From Rhodocyclaceae bacterium (GTDB lineage: Bacteria > Pseudomonadota > Gammaproteobacteria > Burkholderiales > Rhodocyclaceae), in contig VMSX01000021.1 of the NCBI GenBank assembly GCA_013791905.1, forward strand, positions 124,001 through 188,000: DNA of 64,000 bases. Reading direction: 5' to 3'. Position numbers and translations under genes: made by a program. This document shows, piece after piece, positions 52,248 through 62,508 of the stretch. The first letter of the stretch is position 1; every line of letters starts with the position of its first letter. Below the pieces are notes generated by a model. That model ran no database searches, was not told the DNA's origin, and saw nothing but the letters and a program-made list of their open reading frames with translations.

Positions 52248-53160
52248 CCTAGCCCGGATATTTCATGAGCAGGTATCGGCGGAACGGCCGAAAGGCGCTC
52301 TAATACAGGTATCGAAGCCGTATTGAGAGGAGTTCCGCCGATGCCAGATTGTACCGGTCAAGAGATGCTGTTTGGGCGCGTTGGGCGCCGCGCGATCGAA
52401 GCGGATTTCACGGGTGGTGCGCTCAGTTCCGACGGGGGTTTGCTGCTGGTACGGCAGGTTGATCGGAAGATCGGCTTGTCGGCAGCGGTCGCCAGAGCGT
52501 TGAGCGACCCGCGCGATCCGGAACGGATCACCCATCCGCTGCGCGACCTGGTTGCCCAGCGGCTGTACGGGCTGTGCTGCGGCTATGAGGACCTGAACGA
52601 TCACGACGTACTGCGCCATGATCCGCTGATGCAGACGGCGGTGGGCAAAGTCGAGGAATTGGCCAGCTCTCCGACCTTCTCGCGGTTGGAAACGCGCGCG
52701 ACACGGGCCGATATCGTGGCCCTGAACAAGGTGCTGGTCGAGCAGTTCATCGCCGCGCAAGGGAAGATGCCGCGCGAACTGATCCTCGACGTCGATGCCT
52801 CCGATGTGCCACTGCACGGCAATCAGGAACGCTCGCAGTTCCACGGCTACTACGATCACTACTGCTACCTGCCGCTGTATGTGTTCTGCGGCCAGGCGAT
52901 GCTCGCCTGCCTGTTGCGGCCCTCCCGCATCGACGGGGCCCGGCATGCGGCTGCCGTCATCAAACTGATCGTTACCCGGTTGCGCCAAGCCTGGCCGGAG
53001 GTCAAGATCATCGTGCGCGGCGATTCCGGCTTCTGCCGCCAGCGGCTGATCCGCTGGTGCGAACGCCGCCAGGTCGGTTACGTCATCGGCGTGGCCAGAA
53101 ATACGCGCCTGCACAAGGTGGTCACGGTGTGGGAGGCGGAGCTTGAAGCCGCTTTCGCCG
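52248..53160 (+). mobile_element. IS1380-family element, 3' end missing
   Basis: The left end CCTAGCCCGGATATTTCATG matches IS1380-type terminal repeats and a transposase follows. No right end is found: the transposase frame runs straight into hsdR sequence near 53130-53165. The element is therefore truncated. Confidence 0.8.
52341..53160 (+). pseudogene. IS1380-family transposase, truncated
   Basis: About 273 codons of the IS1380 DDE transposase (FGRVGRRAIEADFTGGALSS, DGGLLLVRQVDRKIG, LCCGYEDLNDHDVLRHDPLM, LILDVDASDVPLHG, VIVRGDSGFCRQRLIRWCER). The C-terminal third, including the last catalytic Glu region, is lost. ATG 52341 follows GAGAGGAG; an earlier in-frame ATG at 52323 is unlikely. Confidence 0.85.
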
Positions 53161-55401
53161 CCACGGGTGCATGGCCTGAAGCTCGCCGCCGAAAGCATGT
53201 TGCGGCCGCATGTGGTGCTGGATATCCTCTCCAGTTTCACCCTGTTCGCCACCGACAAGAAGCAGCGCCGCATCAAGATCATCTGCCGCTACCAGCAATA
53301 CGAGGCCGCGAACAAGATTGTCGAGCGGGTGCTGGCCGGCTACCCAAAGAAGGGTTTGATCTGGCATTTCCAGGGCTCGGGTAAATCGCTGCTGATGGTG
53401 TTCGCGGCGCAGAAGCTGCGGCTGCACGCTGGCCTAAAGAATCCGACGGTGCTGATCGTGGTGGATCGCATCGACCTCGATACCCAGATCACCGGCACCT
53501 TCACCGGGGCCGATATCCCGAATCTGGAGAAGGCCGAGACACGCGACAAGCTGCAACAACTGCTGGCGCAAGATGTACGCAAGATCATCATCACGACGAT
53601 CTTCAAGTTCGGCGAAGCCGATGGAGCTTTGAACGAGCGCAGCAACATCATTGCCCTGGTGGATGAGGCACATCGTACCCAGGAAGGCGATCTTGGCCGC
53701 AAGATGCGCGATGCCCTGCCGAATGCATTTCTCTTCGGCCTGACCGGTACGCCGATCAATCGCTTCGACAAAAACACCTTCTACGCCTTCGGCGCTGACG
53801 AGGATGCCAAGGGCTACATGAGCCGCTACGGCTTCGAGGAGTCGATTCGCGACGGAGCGACACTGAAGCTGCACTTCGAGCCGCGTCTGGTAGATATGCA
53901 TATCGACAAGGCCGCCATCGATGCCGCATTCAAAGAAATGACCGGCGGCCTTTCCGACCTGGACAAGGACAACCTCGGCAAGACCGCCGCCAAGATGGCA
54001 GTGCTGGTCAAGACGCCGGAGCGCATCCGGCACGTGTGCGAGGACATCGTCCAGCACTTCCAGAACAAGGTGGAGCCGAACGGATTCAAGGGTCAAATCG
54101 TCACCTTCGACCGTGAATCCTGCCTGCTCTACAAAACCGAACTGGACAAGCTGTTACCGCCCGAGGCCAGCGATGTCGTGATGACGGTGAATGCCAACGA
54201 GCCGCAGTACAAGGTGTTCAATCGCGGCCGGGATGAGGAGGAGCGCTTGCTCGACCGCTTCCGTGACCCGAATGACCCGTTGAAGCTACTGATCGTCACC
54301 TCGAAGCTGCTAACTGGCTTCGATGCGCCGATTCTGCAGGCTATGTATCTCGATAAACCGCTGCGCGACCATACGCTGTTGCAGGCGATCTGTCGGGTGA
54401 ACCGCACCTACTCTGAACAGAAGACGCACGGACTGATTGTCGATTACCTCGGCATCTTCGACGACGTGGCCAAGGCGCTGGAGTTCGACGAGAAGGGAAT
54501 TACCGCCGTCGTCTCGAATATCCAGGAGCTCAAGGACCGGCTTCCGGAGGCCGTGCAGAAGTGCCTGGCGTTCTTCGCCGGCGTGGATCGCACGGTAGAG
54601 GGCTACGAGGGCCTGATCGCCGCCCAGCAATGTCTGCCCAACAATACAGTGCGCGACAATTTCGCCGGCGAGTACAGCCTGCTCGGCAAGCTTTGGGAGG
54701 CGATTTCGCCCGATCCGATCCTCGGCCAGTATGAGAAGGACTACAAGTGGCTGTCGCAGGTGTATCAGTCGGTTCAGCCATCCAGCGGCCACGGCAAGCT
54801 GGTCTGGCATTCCCTCGGCGCCAAGACCATTGAGCTGATCCATCAAAATGTGCATGTCGACGCCGTGCGCGACGATCTCGATACACTGGTGCTGGACGCC
54901 GACCTGCTGGAGGCGGTGCTCTCCAATCCCGATCCGAAGAAGGCCAAGGAAATCGAGATCAAGGTGGCGCGGCGATTGCGCAAGCATCTCGGCAATCCTA
55001 AATTCAAGGCGCTATCGGAACGGCTGGATGCCCTGCGGGACCGGTTTGAGTCCGGCGTGCTGAACAGCGTTGAATTTCTCAAGCAACTGCTCCAGATCGC
55101 CAAGGAGGTGTTGCAGGCCGAAAAGGAAATCCCGCCCGAGGAAGACGAGGATCGCGGCAAGGCAGCGCTGACTGAATTGTTCGCCGAGGTGAAAACCGCC
55201 GAGACGCCGATTATGGTCGAGCGGGTGGTGACGGATATCGATGAGATCGTGCGCCTGGTGCGCTTCCCCGGCTGGCAGGACACGCTGGCTGGCGAGCGGG
55301 AGATCAAGAAGGCGCTCCGGAAGGCACTGTTCAAGTACAAGCTACATGCCGACGAGGAATTGTTTGAGAAGGCTTACAGCTACATTCGACAGTATTACTG
55401 A
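53161..55401 (+). pseudogene. Type I restriction enzyme R subunit, N-terminal nuclease part lost
   Basis: About 745 codons of HsdR: Walker A QGSGKSLLMVFAAQKL, VVDRIDLDTQ, the DEAH-like box VDEAHRTQEGDLG, motif TGTPINRFD, helicase C-terminal QAICRVNRTY, and the C-terminal helical domain. The usual N-terminal endonuclease domain (about 200-300 residues) is absent; the reading frame begins within the truncated IS1380. hsdM and hsdS are not in the window. The remaining motor frame is open to its end, so the damage seems recent. Restriction activity is lost without the nuclease. Confidence 0.88.
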
Positions 55402-55452: not shown

Positions 55453-56313
55453 TCACATTGCGCCGGCATTCAACCGATAGAAGGTACTCTCAACTTGATG
55501 CCACCATGCCGGTGGAGATTCATCCTTGACAACCAACTCCCCATTCTCAAAGAAGGCAATGTCCCAGTAGGTATCCATGCCGTCCTCTCTGCGATCCTCG
55601 CTGTTGTCGAAGAAGATCGCCAGCGAGGCCGCGCGGGCACCGTATGCGAAATTCTCCAGCACGCGCCCGTAACGACTCTCGAGCTTGTCCGGGCGAACAT
55701 CGTGGCCCCCCTTGGCGTGCCGGATGGCTACGCGCGCCTTTGACTTGTCGATCGAATCGAGGCCGACAGCGAAGAGCACCACCAGATAGCCGCGCCGGCG
55801 GGCTTCCACCATGAAGCGCACTTTGTCCTGCACGGGATCGGAAAACACCGTCTCGAAGCTGAAGCTGGTTTCCCGGTCAAGATATTGAAGGCGCCGGCGA
55901 GATCCTTCCTTCGCGGCCAGTTCCTCGAACTCTTTTTTGGTATGACTGCCCGCACCCAGATCGGTGATGATGGCACGCTCGACCTCATCCGGGTTGATAT
56001 GTTCCTCCAGCTCACCGGCAAGGGCGGCAGCAAGTCTCTCGTCGGAAATCGTGGTTTTGCCGGCCCCGTTGTGACCGGCAATCACCACCAGCAGGCGTCG
56101 GTCCTCTTCGGGGATCTCTTGCAATCGCTCCTGCAATCGCTCCAGAAAGACTTTGGCTGGACTCAGATCATCCCTTTCGAGACTTGCGCCCGGAACCGAG
56201 ACCTGCGAAAGCGCCCGCCAGCGCGGTGGCGGCCCGGGTTGCGCGCTCACCCTCCTCGCGTCGTCTTTCCGTCGTGGTGACCGCGAGTGCCTGGTAGGCG
56301 GCCTGCATGGCAT
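55453..56313 (-). CDS. Zeta-toxin-like kinase (P-loop)
   Basis: Up to 286 residues. From about residue 75 it is a zeta/AAA-type kinase: Walker A VVIAGHNGAGKTTISDERLA, HINPDEVERAIITDLGAGS, SFSFETVFSDPVQDKVRFMV, RRRGYLVVLFAVGLDSIDKS, VAIRHAKGGHDVRPDKLESR. The motifs follow zeta/PezT toxins, which phosphorylate UDP-N-acetylglucosamine or related substrates. The start is uncertain: ATG 56313 overlaps the upstream gene by 146 bases; GTG 56250 and internal TTG codons near 56140-56125 are other options. Third gene of a leftward unit with an HTH protein and a TIGR04255 protein. Confidence 0.82.
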   Translation of the reverse strand: MPCRPPTRHSRSPRRKDDARRVSAQPGPPPRWRALSQVSVPGASLERDDLSPAKVFLERLQERLQEIPEEDRRLLVVIAGHNGAGKTTISDERLAAALAGELEEHINPDEVERAIITDLGAGSHTKKEFEELAAKEGSRRRLQYLDRETSFSFETVFSDPVQDKVRFMVEARRRGYLVVLFAVGLDSIDKSKARVAIRHAKGGHDVRPDKLESRYGRVLENFAYGARAASLAIFFDNSEDRREDGMDTYWDIAFFENGELVVKDESPPAWWHQVESTFYRLNAGAM

Positions 56314-56887
56314 CGAGATCGATTTTGGGGGCTTTTAGAAGGTCGAACACGGTGTTGCCGGCGGGAAGAAGCGCATGGAGCCAGCGCCCTTTGAGCGGCG
56401 GGTGGCTATACCATGCTTGTGCTGCGCTGTAGACCTGCTTGATGCGGTCGCGATTTTCGTGAGCGCGTACCTGCTCCATGTCGGTGAGTTTCATCCATTG
56501 GTAAGCCGTTTGCCGCGTGATGCCGCAGATCTCGGCGGTCTCGCTGATGTTCAGACCGAAGACGGCACGCACTCCGTCCAGAACAGACGACGGCGAGAGT
56601 GCGACGGTTGGCAGCGAGACGTTTGGGTTGGGTTCCAGTGCTTCCGGGATTTCAGAGAGAGCGATGCGGTTTTTGATTACAACGAAGAAAGCGCCAGTCG
56701 CCGCATGCAATCCCTGCGAATGTATAGCGACAGGGTTCAACAAATCCCAGTCGCACAGGGCAGCTTGATAAGACGCGGACTGCGCCTCGTCGATGACGCT
56801 TCCAGTTCCTGCCTTGCCATAGAAGCGGCCCATGGCACCCTGACGGATTGCGAACTCGCGCCTAGTCTGCGCTGGTGAATTGTGCAT
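56168..56887 (-). CDS. HTH protein paired with the zeta-like kinase (probable antitoxin/regulator)
   Basis: A 239-residue protein with a central helix-turn-helix (VRAVFGLNISETAEICGITR QTAYQW, near residues 120-145). N-terminal residues 30-105 resemble no family known to me; the C-terminus is Ala/Glu/Arg-rich. AAGGAGGAG precedes the ATG at 56887. Place and overlap with the kinase suggest it neutralises or regulates it, as antitoxins do, but it differs from classical epsilon or PezA. It lies 10 bp after the TIGR04255 gene. Confidence 0.7.
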   Translation of the reverse strand: MHNSPAQTRREFAIRQGAMGRFYGKAGTGSVIDEAQSASYQAALCDWDLLNPVAIHSQGLHAATGAFFVVIKNRIALSEIPEALEPNPNVSLPTVALSPSSVLDGVRAVFGLNISETAEICGITRQTAYQWMKLTDMEQVRAHENRDRIKQVYSAAQAWYSHPPLKGRWLHALLPAGNTVFDLLKAPKIDLDAMQAAYQALAVTTTERRREEGERATRAATALAGAFAGLGSGRKSRKG

Positions 56888-56897
56888 TCTCTCCTCC

Positions 56898-57722
56898 TTA
56901 TGCCGGCTGGCCAGTCCACTCGGCCACGGCTTCAGGCTTAATGATACGTCGAAATGCCATGGAGATATCGTCGCGAAGACGCTGAAATTCCCCGGCGATA
57001 TCTTCCGCCTGTAACCGGCGGGAATCCACGCGCCAGCGGTCGATGTCCAGAACCGCCGATGGCCCATCGGTATATTTCTTCAACAAGGCGGGAGGGATCT
57101 GAACAGAACCATCATCGAGATCCGGCGGCAGGGAGGGGAGCGCGAAGCCTCGTCCATACTGGACGCGCATCGCCCCATCGCCCCCTCTGGGGTATTCGTG
57201 GCTTATGAAGGTGGTTTGGGCGACTTCGCCTAAGACGCCGGTCGAGTGACTGAAGCCGTCCTTGAAGTAGTCCTCGGGCACCTTGCCGGCATTTGGAATG
57301 ATGAAGTCGACGTAGCGCAGGCCGAGCCGAAGCACCTTGACACCGCCTGCGGCGCACAGGCAATCCAGCATCGATCGCCATTCCGCGAGGAATTGTGGCG
57401 AATCCTTGTAGAGGGAGGTGGTGTAGGTCATCACCCCATCCTGAACACGCAAGGCGCTGCGATTGTCGTCGCTACGCAGCTCGCGGCCAACCTCGCCTTC
57501 GTTCGCCTTAGATTCCTCTGCCGGGACAGGCGCGTTACCGAATACAAGCGTCACTTGTCGCACCGCCTTCATGGCGGGAAAGCGTTCTCCCAGCGCTGAC
57601 TTGAGGCGCGCAGCAACCTCCTTGTACTCGGTATCGACTTCGGGATCAAAACGGATTTGCGCCAGCACAAGGGCCAACGGCGCATTGGGCCACTTGCCCA
57701 GCGCCTGGTCGTGATTGCTCAC
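56898..57722 (-). CDS. TIGR04255 family protein
   Basis: A 274-residue protein of the sporadically distributed TIGR04255 family: start KWPNAPLALVLAQIRFDPEV, middle LRLGLRYVDFIIPNAG and end DDISMAFRRIIKPEAVAEW. Such genes are scattered in accessory regions and are suspected of defence or stress roles. The GTG at 57722 has AGGAGG 8 bases upstream. Probably first in the three-gene unit. Divergent from the ubiquitin-like operon. Confidence 0.82.
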   Translation of the reverse strand: MSNHDQALGKWPNAPLALVLAQIRFDPEVDTEYKEVAARLKSALGERFPAMKAVRQVTLVFGNAPVPAEESKANEGEVGRELRSDDNRSALRVQDGVMTYTTSLYKDSPQFLAEWRSMLDCLCAAGGVKVLRLGLRYVDFIIPNAGKVPEDYFKDGFSHSTGVLGEVAQTTFISHEYPRGGDGAMRVQYGRGFALPSLPPDLDDGSVQIPPALLKKYTDGPSAVLDIDRWRVDSRRLQAEDIAGEFQRLRDDISMAFRRIIKPEAVAEWTGQPA

Positions 57723-57737
57723 GGTTATACCTCCTGT

Positions 57738-57832
57738 TGTATGAGTGGGGTGCTGTTTCTATTTACGTCAATCATACACATTACTTGACAACTTTGGAAA
57801 TTCAAGCGTACTATTAGACGCGCTATCATACA
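57738..57832. promoter_or_regulatory. Candidate operator: three TCATACA sites
   Basis: TGTATGA at 57738-57744 and TCATACA at 57772-57778 and 57826-57832 lie in the divergent spacer between the TIGR04255 and ubiquitin-like genes, one on each side of the predicted promoter. Could bind the HTH protein of the left unit; tentative. Confidence 0.35.
57785..57814 (+). promoter_or_regulatory. Candidate sigma-70 promoter of the ubiquitin-like operon
   Basis: TTGACA (57785-57790), 18 bases, TACTAT (57809-57814). The -35 is perfect, the -10 matches 4 of 6. Followed by an 80-base leader to the start codon at 57894. Confidence 0.5.
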
Positions 57833-57893
57833 TACCATGGAGAAACGGCAATGCATGCGAGCGACAACCCTTCATCAAATAAGGAGAATTGAA

Positions 57894-58163
57894 ATGAGCA
57901 ACTCCAACAGCAGTCAGGCTCCCGGTCACAACAAGACCGTCACCATCATCGTCAATGGCCGCAAACGCGAGGTAACTGGCAAAACGGTTTCCTATGAGGA
58001 GATCGTCAAGCTGGCCTTCCCGGACGAACCATCCAATCAGGACACCGACTTCACGGTCGCCTATGCCAACCCCCACGGGAAGGACGGCGAACTGATCGCA
58101 GGGCAGGAAGTCCATGTGAAAGAAGGGATGGTGTTCAATGTCACAAAGACCAATCGTTCTTGA
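57894..58163 (+). CDS. Multiubiquitin-type ubiquitin-like protein
   Basis: An 89-residue protein with one beta-grasp domain: KTVTIIVNGRKREVTGKTVS, YEEIVKLAFP, FTVAYANPHGKDGELIAGQE, VHVKEGMVFNVTKTNRS. This is the bacterial multiubiquitin domain in single copy. The C-terminus is TNRS, with no Gly-Gly, as usual for this family, so attachment, if any, would need trimming or a different chemistry. AAGGAG lies 8 bases before the ATG. The E1-like gene starts 26 bases inside its end. Confidence 0.88.
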   Translation: MSNSNSSQAPGHNKTVTIIVNGRKREVTGKTVSYEEIVKLAFPDEPSNQDTDFTVAYANPHGKDGELIAGQEVHVKEGMVFNVTKTNRS

Positions 58164-59364
58164 TCCTGACATCCAGTCCTTGCAGGACGATGGGCTGAGC
58201 GTCGAGGTGGTGCAGGGGCACCTGCTGGTTCATCAGGTGCCCTACGTCAATGCGAACGGGAAGGTGGCACGCGGCATTATGGTCACTGACCTGCCCGGCA
58301 ACGTCGGCGCTCTGGGCAAGCCGCGCGACCATCAGATCTGGTTCGTCGGCGAGACTCCCTGTTACACCAATGGCAAGCCGATCCGATCGCTCAACCGCAC
58401 CGAAGGCCGGCGCGACCTCTGGCACGGGTTTGCCGTAGATCACCGCTTCTCCTGCAAACCCACAGGGCAACCGGACTTTCCGCTGACGCACTCGGACAAA
58501 ATCCGCCACTATCTTGCGTTGATCGCCCCGGAGGCCAAAGCCGTCGAACCGGAAGCGACGCCCTATCTGTTTGAACCCGTGGTTTCCTTCGACCCTGAAA
58601 GCGTGTTCAAGTATTGGGACTATGCTTCGACGCGCGCCGGTATCTTGGCCGTGACCGCAAAGCTCGAGCAATCCCGGGTGGCCATCGTCGGTTTAGGCGG
58701 CACGGGCAGCTACGTGCTCGACTTGGTGGCCAAGACGCCCGTGCGCGAACTACATCTCTTCGATGGCGATCAGTTCGAGCAGCACAGCGCCTTCCGCACC
58801 CCCGGTGCCGCGTCGATAAAGGACATCGACGCCAAAATGCCGAAGGTTGAATACTTCGCCTCCATCTACGCCAGAATGCGCAAGGGAATCCATCCGCATC
58901 CCGTGTATGTCGAAGAAGCAAACCTGTCCGAACTGGACAACTTCGACTTCGTGTTCCTGTGCGTCGACAAAGGTGGTGTGCGCAGGATGCTGGGCGAATA
59001 CCTCATTGCACGCGACATCCCGTTTGTCGATACAGGGATGGAGCTGACCATGTTGCCCGAGGCGAATGCCCTTCTGGGCACCTGCCGGGCCACCCTCTGC
59101 ACAGCGGGGAAGTCCGACCATTTCAGCCGGTGCGCGCCGCAAAGCGATGCGCTAGGGGATGATCTTTACCGCAGTAACATTCAGGTGGCGGACATGAACA
59201 TGCTCAATGCCGTCCTCGCGGTCCATCTGTGGAAGAAGCACTGCACGTTCTACCTCGACCACTGGCAGCCCCACCACCACACTTACTCAATCGACTCCGC
59301 GTCCCTGACACGCAGCGAAGCGCTCAACCTCCCCCTCCATGAAGATCAAGCAGATCAGACCTGA
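58138..59364 (+). CDS. ThiF/E1-like adenylyltransferase with N-terminal DUF6791-type domain
   Basis: A 408-residue protein. Residues 1-150 form an N-terminal domain (VHQVPYVNANGKVARGIMV, HQIWFVGETPCYTNGKPI, WHGFAVDHRFS) typical of this bacterial E1 group. Residues 155-375 are the ThiF/E1 adenylation fold: nucleotide loop VAIVGLGGTGSYVLDLVAKT, LFDGDQFEQHSAFRTPGA (Asp209, Asp211, Arg220), and Cys316, Cys321 and Cys332, of which one may take the thioester role. It should adenylate the C-terminus of the ubiquitin-like partner. The ATG at 58138 overlaps the upstream gene by 26 bases and the next gene overlaps this one by 26 bases. Confidence 0.88.
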   Translation: MSQRPIVLDPDIQSLQDDGLSVEVVQGHLLVHQVPYVNANGKVARGIMVTDLPGNVGALGKPRDHQIWFVGETPCYTNGKPIRSLNRTEGRRDLWHGFAVDHRFSCKPTGQPDFPLTHSDKIRHYLALIAPEAKAVEPEATPYLFEPVVSFDPESVFKYWDYASTRAGILAVTAKLEQSRVAIVGLGGTGSYVLDLVAKTPVRELHLFDGDQFEQHSAFRTPGAASIKDIDAKMPKVEYFASIYARMRKGIHPHPVYVEEANLSELDNFDFVFLCVDKGGVRRMLGEYLIARDIPFVDTGMELTMLPEANALLGTCRATLCTAGKSDHFSRCAPQSDALGDDLYRSNIQVADMNMLNAVLAVHLWKKHCTFYLDHWQPHHHTYSIDSASLTRSEALNLPLHEDQADQT

Positions 59365-59806
59365 ATACGTCGAATACATCCCGGAGCGACTCGAGGAGGG
59401 TGCGCTATACATCAGCGAGCGATACCGCACAGCGGTGCATAAGTGTTGTTGCGGCTGCGGGCAGGAAGTGGTGACGCCGCTGTCGCCGGCGGAATGGTCG
59501 GTCAGACGTAACGGCAACCAGGTGTCGCTGTGGCCGTCGATCGGCAACTGGAGCTACCCTTGCCGCTCGCACTACGTTATCCGGGACAACTATGTGCTGG
59601 AAGCCAAGGCGATGACGGATCGGCAGATTCAGCAGGTGAAAGTGAATGATCGCGCCGACAAGGCCGCTCAAATCCGCCGTACGAATCACGCCAATGAGAT
59701 GGCCGCGCTAGCCCCAAAACCGAGCGCCCAAATTACATCTCTTCAAGAATGGCAACCGCGTATGAGTTGGCTGCAGCACCTGATTCACTGGTGGAAGTCA
59801 CTTTAG
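59339..59806 (+). CDS. DUF6527 family protein of the ubiquitin-like operon
   Basis: A 155-residue protein with a Cys/His cluster (HKCCCGCGQEVVTPLSPAEW, YPCRSHYVIRDN) that could bind zinc, followed by a charged helix and a Trp-rich tail (SWLQHLIHWWKSL). This family (DUF6527) is found almost only beside multiubiquitin and ThiF genes; no function is known to me. Possible roles are target recognition, a ligase-like helper or a peptidase. Its coding region starts inside the E1-like gene. Confidence 0.85.
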   Translation: MKIKQIRPEYVEYIPERLEEGALYISERYRTAVHKCCCGCGQEVVTPLSPAEWSVRRNGNQVSLWPSIGNWSYPCRSHYVIRDNYVLEAKAMTDRQIQQVKVNDRADKAAQIRRTNHANEMAALAPKPSAQITSLQEWQPRMSWLQHLIHWWKSL

Positions 59807-59926
59807 TGAATCGCCCCGACTATTGTAGATATGTCTGAAGATTGCTTCGATCTCCAGAGCGGTCGGTGTCCTAAATCGAATCGAACGTCCGCACCTATCA
59901 AGAGACAATTTGAAATGCAAAATGAA

Positions 59927-59949
59927 AACGGCTCTGTTGAGGAGCCGTT
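59927..59949 (+). terminator. Terminator after the ubiquitin-like operon
   Basis: AACGGCTC/GAGCCGTT stem with a TGTTGAG loop, followed by ATTCAATT. The A-run before it allows use in the opposite direction too (end of the gyrB transcript). Confidence 0.6.
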
Positions 59950-59957
59950 ATTCAATT

Positions 59958-60001
59958 CCCACGAAATCTAAACATTTGGGAAATATCTAAATGTTCGTGG
60001 G
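59958..60001. repeat. Inverted repeat CCCACGAA/TTCGTGGG next to gyrB
   Basis: CCCACGAA (59958-59965) and TTCGTGGG (59994-60001) frame a 28-base AT-rich centre that contains ACATTT and AAATGT. It lies exactly between the island and the gyrB stop. Could be a gyrB terminator or a trace of integration. Confidence 0.5.
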
Positions 60002-60012
60002 ATCCTACACGG

Positions 60013-62508
<2,496 letters not shown>

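Follow-up and report, generated by a model that had tools for sequence, protein, structure and literature searches.

A stretch of 64,000 nucleotides of contig VMSX01000021.1 from a Rhodocyclaceae bacterium (the window) carries three adjacent forward-strand genes encoding a ubiquitin-like protein (Ubl), an E1-like protein with DUF6791 and ThiF domains, and a DUF6527 protein. We propose, with a probability of about 0.5, that this trio is a Bub-like Ubl-conjugation cassette of a DUF6791 subtype, in which the C-terminal serine of the Ubl would be activated by an E1 that has no conserved cysteine and whose DUF6791 domain may play the role of an E2.

The Ubl gene (57894..58163) starts with ATG, has AAGGAG 7 bases upstream, and encodes 89 residues with one Multi_ubiq domain (PF14452, E value 1.1e-19). 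The E1 gene (58138..59364, 408 residues) encodes an N-terminal DUF6791 domain (58165..58620, residues 10–161; PF20590, 5.1e-41) and a ThiF adenylation domain whose Pfam-matched core lies at 58654..59043 (residues 173–302; PF00899, 8.8e-17). It is followed by the DUF6527 gene (59339..59806, 155 residues; PF20137, 2.4e-23), and all four families exceed their curated cut-offs. A first-pass annotation, made from the sequence alone, had described three same-strand genes with 26-base overlaps, and the reading frames and both overlaps (58138..58163 for Ubl and E1, 59339..59364 for E1 and DUF6527) are as it placed them; the length of the first overlap is conserved across relatives and that of the second is not. 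The good promoter it had also seen, the sigma-70-like TTGACA-18-TACTAT at 57785..57814, is present, but the promoter scan returned two such sites where shuffled sequences gave 1.1 on average, and it is suggestive only. Compared with the locus L002 of Ferrovum myxofaciens, whose E1 is 84% identical, the ratio of non-synonymous to synonymous substitution rates (dN/dS) is 0.11 for the Ubl, 0.136 for the E1 and 0.125 for DUF6527, indicating that all three genes have been kept as proteins. Of 398 searched genomes from the phylum, 8 have DUF6791, that of the window among them, and all eight have the three genes side by side. The Pfam matches, dN/dS and this adjacency confirm, at the level of sequence, that the trio is real and beyond chance.

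Activation of ubiquitin-type modifiers usually takes place at a terminal glycine. The window Ubl ends in FNVTKTNRS, bearing out the earlier reading of a TNRS terminus other than Gly-Gly, and its last serine codon and stop lie within the overlap with the E1 gene. Ubls were compared at 30 loci (the window, L002, 18 plasmid loci, seven genome loci and three viral contigs) from Pseudomonadota, Bacteroidota, Cyanobacteriota, Actinomycetota and Bacillota. Contigs met repeatedly (L029/L042/L101, L030/L037/L097 and L038/L098) were counted once, and both this set and the 31 E1 sequences considered below contain close pairs (window/L002, L008/L017 and L005/L006). At all 30 loci the Ubl ends in Ser-stop at an identical offset within the E1 gene, the annotated E1 start of L025 being 15 bases further upstream, and no Ubl runs beyond the serine. 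Because the searches that yielded the loci used the E1 (DUF6527 for L038), the serine end was not selected for in sampling. Bases 21–24 of the overlap read TCNT in 30 of 30 loci; codon 8 of the E1 is always CNT and encodes arginine (12 loci), histidine (8), leucine (7) or proline (3), the four residues CNT can encode, whereas the Ubl residue there is always serine. The constancy of the one and the variation of the other indicate that selection in the overlap acts through the Ubl frame. Neither the invariant serine end nor this selection was found stated in the accessible literature.

Since the Ubl is encoded without residues after its last, it would not need to be trimmed by a JAB protease. 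Eleven operons of the E2/JAB type were used as comparators, chosen through PF14462 (Prok-E2_E) and thus all containing it by construction. Three of their Ubls end in glycine (TTTEG) and eight continue past a glycine, four of these running on into the E2; such an extension would fit trimming by JAB. Lack of JAB and lack of a Ubl extension go together across both operon types. A single Ubl domain, as in the window, is ordinary: 9 of 18 Ubls compared are shorter than 100 residues, and the other nine exceed 100 and contain, by eye, more than one repeat. The nearest solved structure to the window Ubl is PDB 9cd2 (ZDHYS365 multi-ubiquitin domain protein; 1.4e-8), of which residues 145–222 align with it through the final residues TDKS. 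This chain end resembles those of members of the trio's Ubl family, although 9cd2 is a 222-residue construct, and the structure of a Ubl of this subtype therefore seems to have been deposited already.

The E1 was examined in 31 sequences, 27 from one alignment and four from viral contigs. The ATP-site residues G185, G187, G188, G190, D209, D211, R220 and K236 are kept in all 31 and D277 in 30; the first-pass annotation had held that an E1 predicted to lack ATP binding would count against its proposal, and these residues instead predict that binding is retained. As the alignment shows, the ThiF domain of this family has no conserved cysteine, the best column (275) having cysteine in 16 of 31 sequences. 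The proposed active residues Cys316, Cys321 and Cys332 are not supported, as they occur in only 7, 3 and 4 sequences. Cys75 of DUF6791, put forward with them, has fared better in that it is common (28 of 31), but it is histidine in L025 and L026 and tyrosine in L024, operons that all have the complete trio. The residues invariant in all 31 sequences are H65, S105 and Y125 of DUF6791 and Y344, which immediately precedes the C-terminal helix (codon at 59167..59169), while K107 and K121 are each kept in 30. No statement of a missing conserved ThiF cysteine beside a kept ATP site and invariant H65, S105, Y125 and Y344 was found in the accessible literature.

The best PDB matches of the E1, by sequence search and by fold, are to Citrobacter BubCD, which fills the top eight rows of a Foldseek search with the E1 model (4.8e-10 to 1.1e-8); in HHalign the ThiF part matches BubD at 7.3e-26. 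PDB entry 9eav contains BubCD(D104A/Y370F) with BubB and BubA. Nine BubD sequences have one invariant tyrosine (9/9), which we take to be Tyr370 of BubCD, the offset of two residues being derived from D104A and the JAMM motif. By analogy, Tyr344 may be the counterpart of BubCD Tyr370. In the E1 model, DUF6791 is predicted to begin with a helix (10–17) and four strands (21–25, 28–37, 43–51 and 66–70), followed by short strands (93–95, 98–100 and 102–105) and a helix (118–136), with Cys75 after the fourth strand. Helix, four strands and helix is the order of elements in E2 and RWD domains, and judged from this predicted order we give about even odds that DUF6791 has an E2/RWD-like fold.

We propose the following mechanism. 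The E1 would adenylate the carboxylate of the C-terminal serine of the Ubl, and the acyl group would next be taken up by some nucleophile that is not a conserved E1 cysteine, or pass directly to an amine of the target. Candidate nucleophiles are Tyr344, by analogy with BubCD Tyr370, and Ser105 or Cys75 of DUF6791, a domain that would stand in for an E2 within the same chain as the E1. DUF6527, a predicted zinc protein, may pick the targets, as Iyer et al. suggested for a zinc-finger protein of similar operons. The first-pass annotation had suggested that either the N-terminal domain of the E1 or DUF6527 may supply the missing step; this is retained as a possibility only. A more specific version, in which the whole pathway is free of cysteine, the E1 carries its own E2-like DUF6791, Tyr344 and Ser105 form oxyesters with the activated serine end and no JAB is needed, is put forward tentatively and is rather doubtful.

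Several results weigh against the proposed cassette. The E1 model, built from six sequences, is weak (mean predicted local distance difference test (pLDDT) 66.5) and falls below 50 at residues 54–62, 88–97, 110–114, 143–169 and 339–341; the mean pLDDT of the DUF6527 model is 86.5. All 50 Foldseek rows listed are E1-like ThiF folds, so that DUF6791 itself is not placed. Sequence homology between DUF6791 and the Bub E2 was not supported: the HHalign probability is 0.06, scores as high were reached by 47 and 50 of 60 column shuffles in two modes, and a scan of 28 DUF6791 domains returned no E2 family at E values up to 5. The role of BubCD Tyr370 is read from the title of the PDB entry, and Tyr344 was not aligned with the BubD tyrosine in three MAFFT modes or in HHalign, the two lying eight columns apart beside a 13-column gap that leaves their placement open. 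BubD also has conserved cysteine columns in an FxCxD stretch (one 9/9, one 8/9), and thus the tyrosine is not its only conserved candidate. Finally, a scan of the four window neighbours gave no regulator pair of the kind described below for relatives. A likeness by eye between H-x-F-S-x-K of DUF6791 and QRWSRH of the Bub E2 had, with the order of predicted elements, led us to expect the E2 homology that HHalign, shuffles and the family scan did not back. The local score of DUF6791 against DUF6527 was reached by 2 of 60 shuffles; being one of eight comparisons, it is not taken to indicate a relation.

Other readings of the same data were considered. MccB is a ThiF-type enzyme that acts on the non-glycine C-terminus of a short peptide and is not known to have a conserved ThiF-domain cysteine. 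Chemistry of this kind, in which the E1 would adenylate the terminal serine to give a stable Ubl-nucleotide or a sulfur-carrier product with no protein target, would suit both the non-glycine end of the Ubl and the E1 lacking a conserved ThiF cysteine, and searches with the E1 by structure and by sequence both list MccB among their matches. However, the closest solved relative is BubCD rather than MccB, the trio has DUF6527 and an operon layout in common with the E2/JAB type, the annotation around the 18 plasmid trios includes no sulfurtransferase, and a transporter at just one of them, L018 (major facilitator superfamily, on the opposite strand and two genes downstream), leaving this explanation unlikely. 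The thioester relay of the first-pass annotation, with Cys75 as an E2-like cysteine, draws on the frequency of Cys75 and its place after the fourth predicted strand. We judge it slightly less likely still, given the complete operons with histidine or tyrosine at position 75 and an E1 with no conserved ThiF cysteine from which the Ubl could be passed on.

If the terminal serine were instead a recognition signal and a host protease trimmed the tail before activation, the residues that follow the Ubl in 8 of 11 E2/JAB-type loci would provide a parallel, but in the trio the last residue is itself invariant and nothing lies beyond it at any of the 30 loci, and such trimming is improbable. The reading to which we give the least credence makes the Ubl mainly a self-assembling scaffold, with the E1 as a regulator and no conjugation. 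It would accord with the nine Ubls of more than 100 residues and, by eye, more than one repeat, and with work on these Ubls by Gong and colleagues (2025), the title of which reportedly speaks of oligomerization; the E1 has nonetheless kept its ATP-site residues and the window Ubl has only one domain.

The proposed conjugation cassette is sporadically distributed. The E1 matches 132 of 72,556 plasmid records, 108 of them over at least 80% of its length, some of the weakest matches being E2-type operons aligned over the ThiF part only (for example, Synechocystis). It has no match in the phage collection, and a PHROGs search returned two weak ThiF matches only. For gene neighbourhoods, 18 DUF6791-type plasmid loci picked for diversity were examined with one E2-type comparator from Synechocystis. 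The trio is annotated by family name in 15 of the 18. In L023 it is present as three hypothetical proteins that align; L013 is without an annotated DUF6527 and has an insertion-sequence gene next to it, and L020 is without an annotated Ubl, yet its DNA encodes Ser-stop at the expected position. Within 4.5–6 kb of the trio, the annotation of these loci, which comes from an incomplete gene table and in which L012 is cut by the end of its record, includes no E2 and no JAB, and neither PF14462 nor JAB matches the window trio or its four neighbours, in agreement with the earlier statement that no separate E2 or JAB is visible. This absence beside the trio was not found stated in the accessible literature. 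A PF14462 search of the whole genome gave no match, but none of the control genomes matched either. One Prok-JAB match over the cut-off lies on a contig other than that of the operon (G000 contig C19:40485-40784), and a second, below the cut-off, lies on the operon contig about 155 kb away. The Acinetobacter johnsonii plasmid NZ_CP010358.1 (H26, L112) and the Mesorhizobium plasmid NZ_CP033363.1 (H21, H159) each match both a DUF6791-type E1 and an E2-type protein, and both subtypes can therefore sit on one plasmid.

Regulators lie upstream of the trio in 10 of the 18 plasmid loci: a helix-turn-helix (HTH) and ImmA/IrrE pair in six, ImmA/IrrE alone in one, a WYL gene in two and an ATP-binding and MarR-type pair in one. 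From their product names we read these as CapH with CapP, CapW, and CapK with CapS. The accessible part of a paper that reports 544 Bub operons places many of them beside DNA-damage-responsive regulators, and notes that protection against phage has yet to be demonstrated for such operons (PMC13373217). As many relatives of the trio lie behind regulators of kinds linked to DNA-damage control of Bub, a role in phage defence or stress response appears likely by analogy.

The first-pass annotation regarded the trio as an undescribed pathway, a view that does not survive comparison with the accessible text of Iyer, Burroughs and Aravind (2006; PMC1779556). Their operon type 6e usually has an E1-like enzyme fused to JAB, with a subset having an uncharacterised N-terminal E1 domain in its place, and includes an adjoining protein with between one and three Ubl repeats, together with a predicted zinc finger, C-x3-C-x(35-38)-H-x2-C, the zinc-finger protein being suggested to select targets. 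The trio likewise has a non-JAB N-terminal E1 domain (PF20590 with PF00899), a Ubl-repeat protein (here one PF14452 repeat) and a sporadic distribution, and fits this subset when compared by description. The serine end, the fixed overlap and the missing E1 cysteine go unmentioned in the accessible sections on type 6e. A literature search by name found no paper naming DUF6791 or DUF6527. Thus, the gene set is known, from the type 6e subset as accessible in the 2006 paper, and the serine end and missing ThiF cysteine were not found in the accessible literature.

Among characterized systems the trio is closest to Bub (Citrobacter BubA, BubB and BubCD; 9ea4, 9ea5, 9ea8, 9eae and 9eav), with which it has in common a PF14452 Ubl, a BubD-like ThiF domain, a DUF6527 gene (annotated in 7 of the 11 E2-type loci) and, in many relatives, HTH and ImmA/IrrE neighbours. 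It differs in having neither a PF14462 protein nor JAB, and in a Ubl that ends in serine without extension. A paper by Ye and colleagues (2026) is said to treat the Bub mechanism. In CBASS (cyclic oligonucleotide-based antiphage signalling systems) with Cap2/Cap3, and in Bil, a ThiF-type E1 acts on a protein C-terminus, and each of these systems includes a JAB, an E2 as a domain or as a separate protein, and an E1 with a catalytic cysteine. Twenty-two PADLOC E1–E2 models match the window E1, with best stretches within residues 162–302 and scores of at most 30 bits; unlike in Cap2, the E2 domain is left unmatched. The catalytic residue of BilD is Cys417, according to the accessible text (PMC11354881), whereas the trio E1 has no conserved ThiF-domain cysteine (none above 16 of 31). 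The sequence match to MccB differs in excluding DUF6791. An E2-containing relative on a Synechocystis plasmid is treated in a 2016 paper, accessible in part (PMC4963859).

The DUF6527 model consists mainly of strands, with two helices at the C-terminus, and a Foldseek search with it gave no PDB match at E values up to 0.001 (best 0.12). DUF6527 is predicted to be a zinc protein from a putative metal site, C36-x3-C40-x34-C75-x2-H78, that is one residue short in spacing and swaps the last two ligands relative to the motif of Iyer et al. Among 60 DUF6527-encoding viral-contig loci (L036–L095), which include some near-duplicates, 55 have no E1 by profile search in up to 4 kb on either side, indicating that DUF6527 has a life outside the trio operon. 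DUF6527 also matches in three named phage records, and on viral contig L041 it lies, by eye, near a capsid-like gene. That phage-borne DUF6527 acts as a decoy or in counter-defence is a guess.

Divergent from the trio lie three reverse-strand genes: a TIGR04255 family protein (56898..57722; NCBIfam 9.9e-30), an HTH protein (56168..57067; HTH matches below curated cut-offs) and a zeta-toxin-like P-loop kinase (55453..56313; PF06414, 4.8e-8), which are 83%, 62% and 74% identical, respectively, to their L002 counterparts. As longest reading frames they have overlaps of 170 and 146 bases, and the true starts are thus probably further in. The block common to the window and L002 (55450..59893) is collinear and 81% identical over 4470 columns, and includes this module and the trio as six genes travelling together. 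The three module proteins have no match at an E value of 1e-4 in any compared locus except those of the window (L001) and L002; the neighbours of Rhizobium L028 (TIGR04255 and two hypothetical proteins), considered as the same module, were rejected at this threshold.

In 18 other genomes of the genus, several of them incomplete, there is no full-length E1 match and two have weak ThiF matches. Sequence conserved within the genus picks up again at 59911 in one relative, whose contig stops 52 bases later; in two others it does so at 59999 and 60013 and runs into gyrB. Taken together, these observations suggest that the cassette was probably acquired beside gyrB, with its right end near 59893–59911; the probable right boundary falls within 59893–60013, just beyond the end of gyrB. 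On the other side, at 52323–55401, a transposase-like frame (by eye) runs into a 752-residue frame with type I restriction R-subunit and SWI2/SNF2 matches, the N-terminal part of which is seemingly missing.

A serine at the activated position in 30 of 30 loci from five phyla, together with an E1 family without a conserved ThiF cysteine, would, if the proposed activation is true, widen the known chemistry, and the three-gene operon is small enough for direct testing.

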